Source of the DNA: Bugula neritina
Taxonomy: Eukaryota > Bryozoa > Gymnolaemata > Cheilostomatida > Bugulidae
NCBI GenBank assembly: GCA_964035545.1
Contig: OZ037768.1
Location: 1,039,501 to 1,103,500, forward strand
Length of the DNA: 64,000 bases
Direction: 5' to 3'
Both the position numbers and the translations under genes were made by a program. The first letter of the stretch is position 1, and the number at the start of each line of letters is the position of its first letter. Of this stretch, positions 41,366 through 47,300 are shown piece by piece. The notes beneath the pieces are model-generated. The model searched no databases. It had not been told where the DNA came from and saw only the letters and a list, made by a program, of their open reading frames with translations.

Positions 41366-44300
41366 CTAAAAATAGTTTCAAAAACACAGTTCCATAACTA
41401 CTGGGTCTCACAAGACATGACAGGAGATAGAAAACAACAAATTGTTCACATATGTTGTCAAATCTGTATTTGCCAATAACAAAGTCTAAACGGCTTCTTT
41501 ATTTTGCTAATCCTTAAAACAACCCTAAAGCAACTGTAGGATATCTGCAATGAGGGAAGAGATAACAATGAATCATCAGAGGTTCAGCTACTAAAACCAC
41601 AAAAGCCTACCAAATCACTCAATACTGTTGTCATTGTTGACCTATTATGATATCAATAATGATACATCAGAAAGCGAGAATTAAAATTTAGTTTTATTGA
41701 AGCGAAAAAACTTCTAAAAATTATCAGTTTTTAAAGAGCATGAAAAATTCACAAATCGTTGACCACAATAAGAAAAGTCTAAATGTCATATAACTTTCAC
41801 TCTGCTAAAACTACATATTATAAAGCGGAGAAATTAAACAATAAAAAAAAACTGTTGTGCGTAAAATTTTCTCATGATTGTCACCAGGTTCTATATAAGA
41901 AGCAGTTAGAATAGTCATACAGCTTGATATGCATTAGTGACTTCTACCCTGTACCTTTAGGCTGATTCACATCAACACGTGTTAGCAAGAATTCATCACC
42001 GTCGATATCAACTCCCTCCCACTTAGCAAAGTCAATGGTAACTCTTCCATCACAGCTGAGGTAGGAGCAGTTGCCAATGCTGTCTTTACAGTACTCCTCT
42101 TCCAGCAGCTGGAGGAAAATTCCAGAAAACCAATTAAAAAGATACTCTCCCTCTCTTGATAACACTAAAGGTGAAGAAACTTGTAAGCAAGCTTCAAATC
42201 TGACAGGTTACATTGCGTCTGAGCAACTAAAGCAGCTTCAAGTTTAGGAATCTAAAAATTGGTAATTGGCTATGAATGGCTTCCAGAGATTTAAAATAAA
42301 AATTCCTAAACACCATAAGCACTTGTCAAACCTTGTTAGTATCTCCATCAAACTTGATCCATTCGCCGCCATTCTCCGAATATTTCCATTCAATTCCTTT
42401 AGCCAAATGTTTATCCAGTTCCTTTTTCACAAATTCGTCGTAAACATCAGCCAGCATGGCCGCAACGTGACCAGACATGGCCTGCACTTGATCAGCAACA
42501 CCTTGAATCTTGAGGTCTTTAGCTGCTTGGTTAACCTCCACACGCACATTCAGTTTATCAGCCTCTCTTTCAAGAATGGATATCTAAACAAAATACAAAT
42601 CCTCAATTTCTTCAACGTTAAATTGAGAACGTTTGCAACTGAACTGTGAGGTAGTTTAACTGAAGCATTTCACTTTCAACACACTGCGGTGGTGGAGAAA
42701 TCAAATCACTAACAGCACATTTTAATTTGTATTTATATAAATAAAAGAAATGTTCAGTGCGGGTACACTTGCTATCATTTGAAACACACCTACTGTCTAA
42801 GACTAAGAGGTAAAGGTGGCATGTAGTAAGGTTGGGCATGTAGTAATGATACAAAGTAAACACATTAGGTATAATTGTATTCCAGCCTTAGAAAATGCTC
42901 ACTGGGTCAACACATGAAAAACTAAACAATACAGTTTGTGCTACATTTTGCTACACTTTATTCCAGATTAGCTATTTACAGTCGGAGGCAGGCAGCTATC
43001 CACAGTGTGAAAGGTAATAAGTGAGATTATCACACCTGCTCTTTTGTCAAACCACTGATACATTTCTTATCTCTCTTCTCATATGTTGCTTTCTTTGACC
43101 ACATTTCGGTGGTAATGAGCTCCTCTAGTCTGTAATCTAGCTCCATCTCGCACTGCTCTACTTCTTTCAATGACCCGGCATATATTTTTACTCTTAGGGT
43201 GTCTTCAACGTTGCCATCCGCACCTAACGTTATTTACTAACTGCTTCAACAACATATTTGTGATGGTGTCCAGAAAAATGACACTATTTCGATATTGGGG
43301 TTTGGAATTCGGAATGAGGTTAAAGGGTTGAGGGTTTGGAGTCTAAGTTTGGGGTTTGAGAAAATTTAACATCAGTGTGTCATTTTACCTAAAATAATCT
43401 GTGGTCGGTGCCTGAATTGAATATATATTGAGATAGAGGAATTTCGTGACTAGAACCTAGCTAGACTCCCATCTCAGTTGCTCAACTAATTATTGAGCTT
43501 GGTTTTCTGTGTTTTAAAGTTAAAAAGCTAACATACATGTACAGGAGTGTTAAATATTGTATGTAGACTAACATACATGTACACGAGTGTTAAACATTGT
43601 ATGTAGACTAACCTGACACTTTTTTTCCCTTCAACCTATCAACCAGATATTTCACTGGTTTAAATCTTTTATACCAAGTAGGGGATTTCTTCAGGAAGCT
43701 GACAAATTCTTTAGACATCTTCTCTTCATATATTACGAGGTCTACCACCCTGACTCGGGTACGGGGGTTGTGTTGAATGTATTTTTCAACAGCCTCAAGA
43801 ATTGTTTTAGCCATAATCTTTTTACTTAGTTTCAACACACCTGTAGCAATAGCATGCTAACCTGTAGTAATAGCAGTGCTAACCTGTAGCAATAGCAGTG
43901 CTAACCTGTAGCAATAGCAGTGCTAACCTGTAGCAATAGCAGTGCTAACCTGTAGCAATAGCAGTGCTAACCTGTAGCAATAGCAGTGCTAACCTGTAGC
44001 AATAGCAGTGCTAACCTGTAGCAATAGCAGTGCTAACCTGTAGCAATAGCAGTGCTAACCTGTAGCAATAGCAGTGCTAACCTGTAGCAATAGCAGTGCT
44101 AACCTGTAGCAATAGCAGTGCTAACCTGTAGCAATAGCAGTGCTAACCTGTAGCAATAGCAGTGCTAACCTGTAGCAATAGCAGTGCTAACCTGTAGCAA
44201 TAGCAGTGCTAACCTGTAGCAATAGCAGTGCTAACCTGTAGCAATAGCAGTGCTAACCTGTAGCAATAGCAGTGCTAACCTGTAGCAATAGCAGTGCTAA

Positions 44301-47300
44301 CCTGTAGCAATAGCAGTGCTAACCTGTAGCAATAGCATGCTAACCTGTAGCAATAGCAGTGCTAACCTGTAGCAATAGCAGGAAATGCTATGCTTGATCC
44401 CCTCTCTTGGTTGTGGCACCTCTGAAGACAGTTCACAATGAGATTCTCAAAATCAACTTCTGCAGAATCAGTCTCGGTGTGTTTTGTGTTCATATGAAAG
44501 ATAAAATCAGCTTCGAGATTTCCTGCCTTGGTCTCCCATATTCCATTTTCAGGATCTGAAAACACAGATATACATACATATCCGCACGCATATCCGCACA
44601 CATATCCGCACGCACATATGTATCTCTGTATGCATAATATAGAAAATCAAGTTGCAGCTAATGATAAGTAACATAATGAGAACTTACGTTCATCTTTAGC
44701 AATCTTAGCCCGAATCTCATTGGTTATTGACTGACCGGCCCTCATGAGCAAAGCCCGCGACACCATCCCTGCAGCAGGAAATACTTTAAACTCAAATTGT
44801 TTTTCACGTTTTACTAAGAAATTACAAAAAACTATTTCATGGTTTATTAACTCAACAAGATTTGGTATACACATTTTGCTCACTAATACAATATTGACCT
44901 TTGTCATAAGGACCTCCGGTGAGTTTAGAGGCACTGTTGACCAGCACATCAGCCCTGTGTTCGGCCAAGTCACCAGCAATCACTCGAATAGTAGTATTCT
45001 TCAACACCAGATACCCTTTCAGAACTGCGTTACCTCTGAGATCAGCTGACAGAGCTTTTTCATCGTCTATAATTATAATTACTTACCTACAGCTCATGTT
45101 GAGTAAATACAGTATGTAGCCTATGGCATAGGTAACACACTGTAGCAAGGTTCTGATTTGAGCTTACAGTGAATAGAAGCCAGCCATTTTAGTGCTGAAA
45201 CAGTTCCCTTTTGAAACTAGTGACTTACTGTTCTACTAACAGTAAACTAAGTTTTATTTTGATTGCTAAAACCTTTCATTGAGCCGCAGAAAACTGAATG
45301 CCCAGAAAAAAATTAAACACAACAGAAAAAATCTTTTCTACAAATAAATTAAGATAGCCAATAAAAACGAGATTATTTCAAAACAGCAAAGATAGCAGAT
45401 GGTTGCTATGGTTACAGTGACCTCCAGCGCCAAGAGCAGTAGCCAAGTTTCTATTCTTAGCCGGTTTGCCAGGCGAGAGTCCCGGTAAAGCACGAGTTTT
45501 CTTTCTAAGTTCTTCTTGTAAGCTCTAGTAAAATACGCGTAATAACCATGAAGTAATGCAACAGCTAAATCTTCCACAAGTATTGATAAATTCTGCCATC
45601 CATGCAAATTGATAAAAAGTAGTTAGCAATGAAGATCTACTAAACATTGTTACTGATTTACAGGGTCTATTAGCTCTTTGCCTTTAGCAAGTTAATTCAT
45701 ACAGTATTGTCTAATGTCAAACTGTAATAACTCTTTATCAAAGAGATATAGATCTCTGGCTACTGCCAGCGGAGACATGTGCTATATCTTGACTTTAAGC
45801 TTAGTTTGAACATTAAAAGCTTATTTGAGTAACAGGAAAAACGCAACTGCTAATACCTTCCAGTTGTTGTCGTCTGTATTGTAGACTACGATCTTTACAT
45901 CTACGAGGTTACTGTTGGGGTTGCGGCTATAATACTCCATCATTCCACCTATCATAGCCTGAGCAGCAGCGTCTGGTGTGAAGGCACAACCACCTGCACC
46001 GAGCACAGGAAAGGCAACAGACTTACACCCAACAGACTCAGTCTGTGTCAGACACTCAGTCACAATGTTCTTCAGCATCTGGAAGATCAGACATAAGGCT
46101 CACAACAAAATTGGAGGCTTCAAACTTTACATATACTTGAGAACAGTTTACTTCTTATACCAACGAGCAAAAATGAACAGGTAATTGATATAATTTCTCA
46201 ATTACTACAAAACATAGAAAAAATATACAGTTTTGTAAATTGAGCAAAAAGCTGTTTATGGAACTGAGAGTTGTTTGACTAATCTCAGGTCATTTGGGGC
46301 TGCTCTCGGATTGGTCAGCAGGTAAACCCATCGCAGGTAAACTTATCTGGTTTACCAAAGCTGGCAAGTCGAGGCTACTTCAACTATTACAAGTGATCAG
46401 CGTGGGCAAGTATTGGAATCAGTACTACAAACCTCAACTGATTTGTTGCCAGCTGGAATGAAGTATCAAAGATATACAACTAAACTGCAACTGGTGATCA
46501 ATTCAGTGTTGGGGACACATGTGGTGAAGGGAAAGTGGAAATCAGAGGTTGCTATTTATAAAGTGATTGAACACAGCAAATCAGATAAAGACTTTAACAA
46601 GTTTGTTACCATGACTATCCAAGCATATAATCAAACAAAACTTTATAGTGCTTTGCAGAAAAATTAAGAAATTACATGCCATTACATGTTTCGATATTGT
46701 GTTACTAACAAGCTGCTCATAGTAACTACATGAACATCTTTAAAAAAAAATCAATCTTAGTTTAAGCAAATAATCAAGCAATTCAAAGTGATTAGAAAAT
46801 GATTCTGTAAAAAAATTGACAAATAGTCTACTTTTAGTTTACCGTATGATCTCTGCCTCCATGTGGACAACAGCAGCATACAACTGTCTTACATGAAGCC
46901 AATGCATGACCACTAGCTGTATGTCTGACATCTCCCTCCTTTAACTTCCCAAACCTAGTAGAGAGCTCTTTCTGTAACCCGTCTTTAGCCTTCACACTCA
47001 CTGCTTTGGAAGCCTTAGCACTGGCCAGGTCCAAGTCTGAGGGTACAGATATGACTAAAGCTTCCTCCTAAAAGTTAGTTAACACTCAGTATGACTCTTG
47101 GAACACCAGGTGTAACTAGCTGGGAGTGTTGGAGTTATGCTCACCTGTGAGTCAGCCAAGTCTCCTTTAGTTAATCTGATTTTGAACTTTCCCATGAAGG
47201 TCATCGTATCCTGACTCAGTGTAGCAACCGTTTGAACAGGTCCTGCTGTTAAGATAGATAGCAAAGCAACAACTGGTAAAAGTGTAGGACACTTCAGTAC

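Follow-up and report, generated by a model that had tools for sequence, protein, structure and literature searches.

A macrodomain intron made of splice-junction units

The 64,000-nucleotide stretch of DNA analysed here (the window) carries on its minus strand a gene with macrodomain exons, which we call PARP14-like from its sequence, since its downstream exons encode WWE and PARP catalytic domains. The subject of this work is the intron at 43841-44366, which interrupts the macrodomain. Exon models were derived from homology and splice-site scoring only. A first-pass annotation of the window had described this intron as consisting of nothing but about 24 copies of a 22-bp unit, and this description proved to be exact. 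Read on the minus strand, the intron parses into 24 units, of which 21 are the 22-mer GTTAGCACTGCTATTGCTACAG, two are 21-mers, and one (unit 23) is a single-base variant (G>A). The 21-nt form, GTTAGCATGCTATTGCTACAG, has one C fewer than the 22-mer and occurs as unit 2 and as the last unit. The length of the intron is the exact sum of its units (22 × 22 + 2 × 21 = 526 nt). Tandem Repeats Finder (TRF) reported 24.8 copies with 99% matches and a score of 1065, with the exon part counted in.

The repeat extends into the upstream exon (44555-44367), the 3' end of which reads ...TTTCCTGCTATTGCTACAG. At a shift of 22 nt, the copy of the exon end in the unit is exact over 15 nt, and control shifts gave matches of at most 2 nt. 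The copy had thus been recognized correctly in the first-pass annotation, but its length had been given as 13 nt. Each unit consists of these 15 nt of exon end and 7 nt of intron start, and only GTTAGCA is private to the intron. All 25 joints read CAG/GT (a slash marks a splice junction), in line with the earlier statement that units start with a donor and end with an acceptor, although one of the 24 units ends with TTACTACAG and not with TTGCTACAG. The exon after the array opens at 43840 with GTGTGTTGAAACTAAG (in the parse, GTGTGTTGAAAC) and has only its first 1-2 nt in common with the units. Since this exon starts with GTGTG, the spliced coding joint 44367/43840 also reads AG/GT (ACAG/GT).

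With the array removed, the exons read FPAIATGVLKL without interruption, as had been proposed. The match of the joined protein to Pfam Macro spans the joint (46.9 bits; cut-off 22), and so does its match to the solved PARP9 macrodomain, at FPALGTGNMEI. The glycine codon that is split by the intron belongs to FPAIATG, which aligns with FPALGTG of PARP9. The joined protein matched 35 sequences, among them solved macrodomains of PARP9, PARP14, PARP15 and macroH2A; a protein search for macrodomain relatives gave 332 candidates, none of them at E ≤ 0.001. The array contains 7 to 9 stops in each reading frame and therefore cannot be coding, which rules out a coding repeat. Retention of one, two or three units leads to FPAIATG followed by TAG each time, in agreement with the in-frame stop that had been expected in every retained unit. 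It follows from the sequence that a change in copy number is neutral for the protein, as also suggested before.

Table 1 Features of the window and of the SMC2 locus
Feature	Position	Strand	Description
Intron of the macrodomain	43841..44366	minus	24 tandem GTTAGCACTGCTATTGCTACAG units or variants only; phase 1; 526 bp
Last 15 nt of the upstream exon	44367..44381	minus	Matches the 3' part of all consensus units exactly; the repeated acceptor derives from it
Upstream coding exon	44367..44555	minus	Ends ...FPAIAT+G; Pfam Macro across the joint
Downstream coding exon	43613..43840	minus	VLKLSKKIMAKTILEAVEKYI...; starts GTGTG
Next intron of the same gene, its start	43528..43612	minus	2.1 copies of a 40-bp repeat (GTTAGTCTACATAC...); first base of the repeat is the donor G
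Coding exon of the same macrodomain	44688..44768	minus	GMVSRALLMRAGQSITNEIRAKIAKDE; edges judged by eye from sequence
First coding exon of the macrodomain	44899..45066	minus	DDEKALSADLRGN...GGPYDKG; edges judged by eye from sequence
Downstream exons of the same gene model	40529..43233	minus	WWE and PARP catalytic domains
SMC2 gene model	C4:1000579-1012563	minus	About 71 kb from the macrodomain intron; 24 exons, 23 introns
Donor-anchored array in a nuclear-receptor intron	30999..31310	plus	15.6 copies of a 20-mer; AAGT/GTAAGT, donor at 31002; 14 GTAAGT
Preceding intron of the nuclear-receptor gene, 3' part	30478..30865	plus	29.8 copies of a 13-mer; ends 18 nt before the exon

The PARP gene is adjoined by a reverse-transcriptase-like open reading frame (37908-39050, minus strand) of 380 uninterrupted amino acids, apparently of a non-long-terminal-repeat element as judged by eye.

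Two paralogous genes carry an ordinary intron at the same position

A search of the whole 215.8 Mb assembly (G000) with the macrodomain protein gave 10 matches, two of which were the gene itself; a second near-identical gene copy, possibly representing the other haplotype, was not among them. The next-best matches by score, L011 (C2:17042770) and L012 (C4:1132728), showed 41-42% protein identity (L017 is a separate match, to the exon following L012). In both, exactly this glycine codon is split by a phase-1 intron. The L012 intron is 363 nt long (TTCCCTGCTCTCGGCACAG/GTGAGTTAC ... TTTAAG/GAAATCTGGG; codon context ACA G/..AAG/GA AAT) and contains no TRF array. The L011 intron is 643 nt long (TTCCCAGCTCTCGGCTCTG/GTGAGTTAC ... 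TTCTAG/GAAATCATAAG; codon context TCT G/..TAG/GA AAT) and contains a single TRF array, a 17-mer covering 62 bp away from both joints. The first-pass annotation had suggested a comparison with orthologues from close relatives. With the paralogues substituting for them, ordinary, largely non-repetitive introns were found at the same position, which speaks for replacement of the intron's content and against the birth of a new intron. Since L011 and L012 have their introns at the identical codon, an intron was in place here before the split of the three genes that carry one, which would make the array a later replacement.

Two further macrodomain exons in the window, 45821-46099 and 47706-48101, are nearly identical (1 amino acid difference in 82 residues), and their sequence suggests a recent tandem duplication of an exon or gene within the macrodomain cluster. 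A degenerate 22-bp array near the donor is common to another pair of paralogous macrodomain introns, C4:1131520-1132236 and C2:17039833-17039966, with about 33 and 6 copies, respectively. About 15 of 22 nt agree as judged by eye. This is an unproven lead; the array may predate the gene duplication.

Splice sites of the units

To score the splice sites of the unit, we used matrices built from 22 introns of SMC2 (intron 9 was left out), a gene described below. The unit donor CAG/GTTAGC scored 10.95, more than 15 of the 22 SMC2 donors, and this value was reached by 0.34% of the 21,783 GT dinucleotides counted over the two strands of the C4 stretch. The score of the unit acceptor was 6.42, which exceeded 3 of the 22 SMC2 acceptors and was reached by 4.35% of the 22,659 AG dinucleotides of the same stretch. 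No strong branch-site consensus was recognized in the 22-bp unit by eye.

All 23 inner joints have an acceptor immediately adjoining a donor, as in a ratchet point. If the first donor were spliced to one of the inner acceptors, whichever it is, an exon/GTTAGC donor would be restored, so that stepwise (recursive) removal of the array is possible in principle. Isoforms that include units are likewise possible. The shortest SMC2 intron is 101 nt, and if only one to four units remained, they may therefore be too short to be removed. With 25 near-identical AG/GT joints around 526 nt, the intron is a natural substrate for studying how the spliceosome chooses the outermost sites.

Origin of the array

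We consider it likely that this is an old spliceosomal intron of the PARP14-like gene, and that its content was replaced by its own amplified 5' splice junction, a minisatellite of the 'mirage' type. The first-pass annotation had named the replacement of an old intron by an amplified junction as its alternative, and the L011 and L012 introns at the same codon support it. In the order of events that we infer, the 15 nt of exon end and the first 7 nt of the intron were amplified through slippage or unequal exchange. With an exon end finishing in CTACAG and an intron start of GTTAGC, every unit boundary would have become a potential acceptor and donor. Such an array would never lose the donor and would bring its own acceptor. 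Because the exon tail resembles an acceptor, the array could terminate itself, and the self-supplied acceptor would have made the old intron body and its 3' splice site dispensable. These could then have been deleted, probably at the AG/GT microhomology with the downstream exon starting with GT. This exon starts with GT here versus GA in both paralogues, and the T may derive from the array; the change of the glycine codon from GGA to GGT is silent. The correct mRNA would be formed by joining the outermost donor to the last acceptor, and recursive splicing could finish the removal after a splice from the first donor to an inner acceptor. The scenario is supported by SMC2 introns 4, 11 and 17, where arrays enter an exon in the same genome, by the large minisatellite share of 11 of the 23 SMC2 introns, and by the high score of the unit donor.

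Several observations weigh against this scenario. The unit acceptor is weak, and a fold that might drive expansion was not detected, as RNA and DNA folds of four units were no better than those of shuffled sequences (z 0.67 and 0.71). No trace of the old intron body was seen in the array, and the deletion step is thus not visible. In most of the SMC2 introns with arrays (11 of 14, the uncertain intron 9 included), the array does not clearly extend into an exon. The paralogues, which stand in for an orthologue of a sister species, are only 41-42% identical in protein. Moreover, L013, L014, L015, L016 and L018 align unbroken through the intron site, and the window macrodomain exons 45821-46099 and 47706-48101 read through it. 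In a tree of ten sequences and about 80 residues, which omitted L016 and included human PARP9, the gene with the array was placed beside L018, which has a long branch and lacks the intron, and the three domains with the intron did not form a clade. The intron may therefore have been gained, though before the split of the three genes that carry it.

The first-pass annotation had also named birth of the intron by tandem duplication of an AGGT-containing exonic stretch. In the form of the Rogers model, with a coding stretch duplicated and then amplified, this would explain why both splice sites come from the repeat, why the intron is composed of complete units only and why the spliced coding sequence reads ACAG/GT at the joint, and it agrees with the absence of an intron at this site from several other macrodomains of the genome. 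We nevertheless regard it as improbable: the intron is present at the identical position and phase in two paralogues and is thus not absent from the nearest homologues; a unit read as exon carries an in-frame TAG; the downstream exon matches the units for its first 1-2 nt only; and, as GTTAGCA is found at neither exon edge, duplication of coding sequence alone would not yield the unit. About as improbable, or slightly more so, is a regulatory device, either a chain of ratchet points or a switch for unproductive splicing, in which selection keeps the array and its copy number tunes the PARP output. The conserved CAG/GT at all joints and the stop after retention of one, two or three units would fit such a device, as would the human UBC gene, in which an array of dual-specific AGGT sites is spliced stochastically (PMC10809524). 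The identity of 21 of the 24 units is, however, explicable by recent homogenization without selection, and many SMC2 introns are filled with minisatellites that do not cross a joint.

Two further explanations appear very improbable. Proto-splice sites are the insertion targets of introners, which bring splice signals with them, and a mobile introner or dispersed repeat could have been inserted at AG/GT and copied in tandem afterwards. However, 15 of the 22 nt equal the local exon end, and no dispersed copies at other genes were among the matches listed for a three-unit query, all 12 of which fall in this one array (repeat counts from this matching are lower bounds, with very common words skipped). 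A minisatellite that arose in the intron by chance, or an error of assembly, might touch the exon by coincidence, and this would be in keeping with the richness of the sampled stretches in minisatellites (103 arrays in 263 kb). Against it stand the exact 15-nt exon copy compared with at most 2 nt at other shifts, the precise fit to both exon edges, and the comparable architecture seen in genes unrelated to this one; units that match an exon are not an expected product of misassembly.

Splice sites that originate from repeats are commonly put forward as evidence that an intron is newly born. The replacement that we favor suggests a route by which an old intron is emptied, refilled from its own junction, and ends up looking exactly like a newborn one. 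Without the paralogues, the intron at 43841-44366 could have been miscalled as such a birth.

Minisatellite introns elsewhere in the genome

We surveyed 200 kb around two macrodomain clusters together with the window, 263 kb in all, which is not a random sample. Counting TRF units of 10-100 bp with at least 3 copies and one row per overlapping group, the 103 arrays total 24.6 kb. A codon-usage scan of these arrays scored the known macrodomain case poorly (upstream -0.5) and was used just to find SMC2 and a nuclear-receptor gene, not as a count.

The SMC2 model covers nearly the full length of the gene and encodes a protein of 1,168 residues that aligns end to end with solved SMC2 (9f5w_A, 1,181 bits). 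Reading frame and site score guided the choice of its splice sites, and the acceptor of intron 9 is uncertain. Arrays are present in 14 of the 23 introns and cover 67-95% of the sequence in 11 of the 23; TRF arrays of any period make up 4,906 of 8,481 intron bases versus 60 of 3,429 exon bases. Three of them cross a splice junction. By the TRF edge, the intron 17 array includes 13 nt of the exon end and the intron 4 array 5 nt, and the intron 11 array enters the exon at the 3' side by 7 nt. Owing to divergence of the first unit, the exact match at one period in intron 17 is just 3 nt, compared with up to 2 nt in controls. The remaining SMC2 introns with arrays showed no clear junction copy, except for an unexplained 6-nt 3' match at intron 6 (C4:1010007-1010589), where the downstream exon's first 6 nt are also found 19 nt before it; this is possibly a first duplication of a 3' junction. 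Most SMC2 arrays end 7-66 nt short of the acceptor, and those of introns 9 and 11 reach past it. Several of the introns thus have little besides an array, preceded by a short 5' lead and followed by a 3' splice site.

In the window, an exon for a nuclear-receptor ligand-binding domain lies between two minisatellite introns (30478-31345), and its Pfam Hormone_recep match crosses the joint. The exon ends with AAGT, and only AGT is identical with the 20-mer array that follows. Three leads are not proven: an exon at C2:17099904-17100040 with the motif DVNEFAPEF, which we take to be cadherin-like, gave in Pfam only a sub-cut-off luciferase-type match to a short piece, and the unnamed open reading frames at C4:1117832-1118540 and C4:1151569 gave no Pfam hits.

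Minisatellite introns in this genome look frequent enough to be studied as a class. A broader proposal, which we put forward tentatively and regard as rather doubtful, is that minisatellites routinely take over introns in this genome, and that arrays which capture a junction become self-sufficient, so that the old body is lost and the position is kept. Under this proposal, the macrodomain intron would amount to a natural row of 23 zero-length exons that are removed recursively in variable steps, and its length would be free to change in every generation.

Comparison with known systems

Amphioxus mirages are minisatellite-like tandem duplications of an exon-intron boundary, 5' or 3', with AG/GT in many units; their length is unstable, and splicing was apparently normal by RT-PCR (PMC3087553). 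Units of 10-72 bp were found in the Adh3 mirage (Canestro et al. 2002, through PMC3087553), and the globin mirages of BflGb6 and BflGb9 are few-copy clusters at one boundary, with 3 or 6 units of 150-160 bp in BflGb6 (PMC3087553). As far as these descriptions go, the macrodomain intron resembles mirages: its 22-bp unit is a tandemly duplicated exon-intron boundary, and the AG/GT signal recurs at every joint. Unlike in the globin mirages, the array forms the entire intron, and both the donor and the final acceptor come from the unit. The human UBC gene contains a tandem array of dual-specific AGGT splice sites with 228-nt in-frame coding monomers that are optionally removed, and in human, 77 introns consist of a whole number of repeat units (PMC10809524). 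AGGT at the unit borders and a length of whole units are also found here, whereas the units are 21-22 nt long and non-coding, and their retention stops translation. In the Rogers model of intron gain (cited in PMC3087553), a duplicated sequence supplies the splice signals. Here too they come from sequence duplicated at the exon-intron boundary, but the position is common with the paralogues and only the content is new. Ratchet points and recursive splicing are abundant within long introns of Drosophila (PMC8605326); the same juxtaposition of acceptor and donor around a zero-length exon recurs here as a tandem chain in a 526-bp intron, predicted from sequence.

The macrodomain intron thus combines a boundary minisatellite with a whole-unit intron. 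In the titles and abstract openings listed by searches of open-licence literature, neither an intron consisting wholly of junction units nor a genome with minisatellite introns as a class was found, and an intron made of junction units only, with both splice sites from one repeat, appears to be new.

The reported hosts of mirages are cephalochordates, and the host here is probably not one. In a COX1 sequence on contig C295, read with TGA as Trp, 6 of 14 AGA/AGG codons align with Ser of a solved COX1 and 0 of 14 with Arg. AGR that does not encode Arg marks the bilaterian-invertebrate type of code, which points to a bilaterian invertebrate as the host but alone does not exclude cephalochordates. 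Further COX1 matches lie on C6 (11174072-11175412), C17, C65 and C196. The one on the chromosome-sized contig C6 may be mitochondrial DNA copied into the nucleus; since the others differ in their use of TGA, the assembly may hold other organisms.

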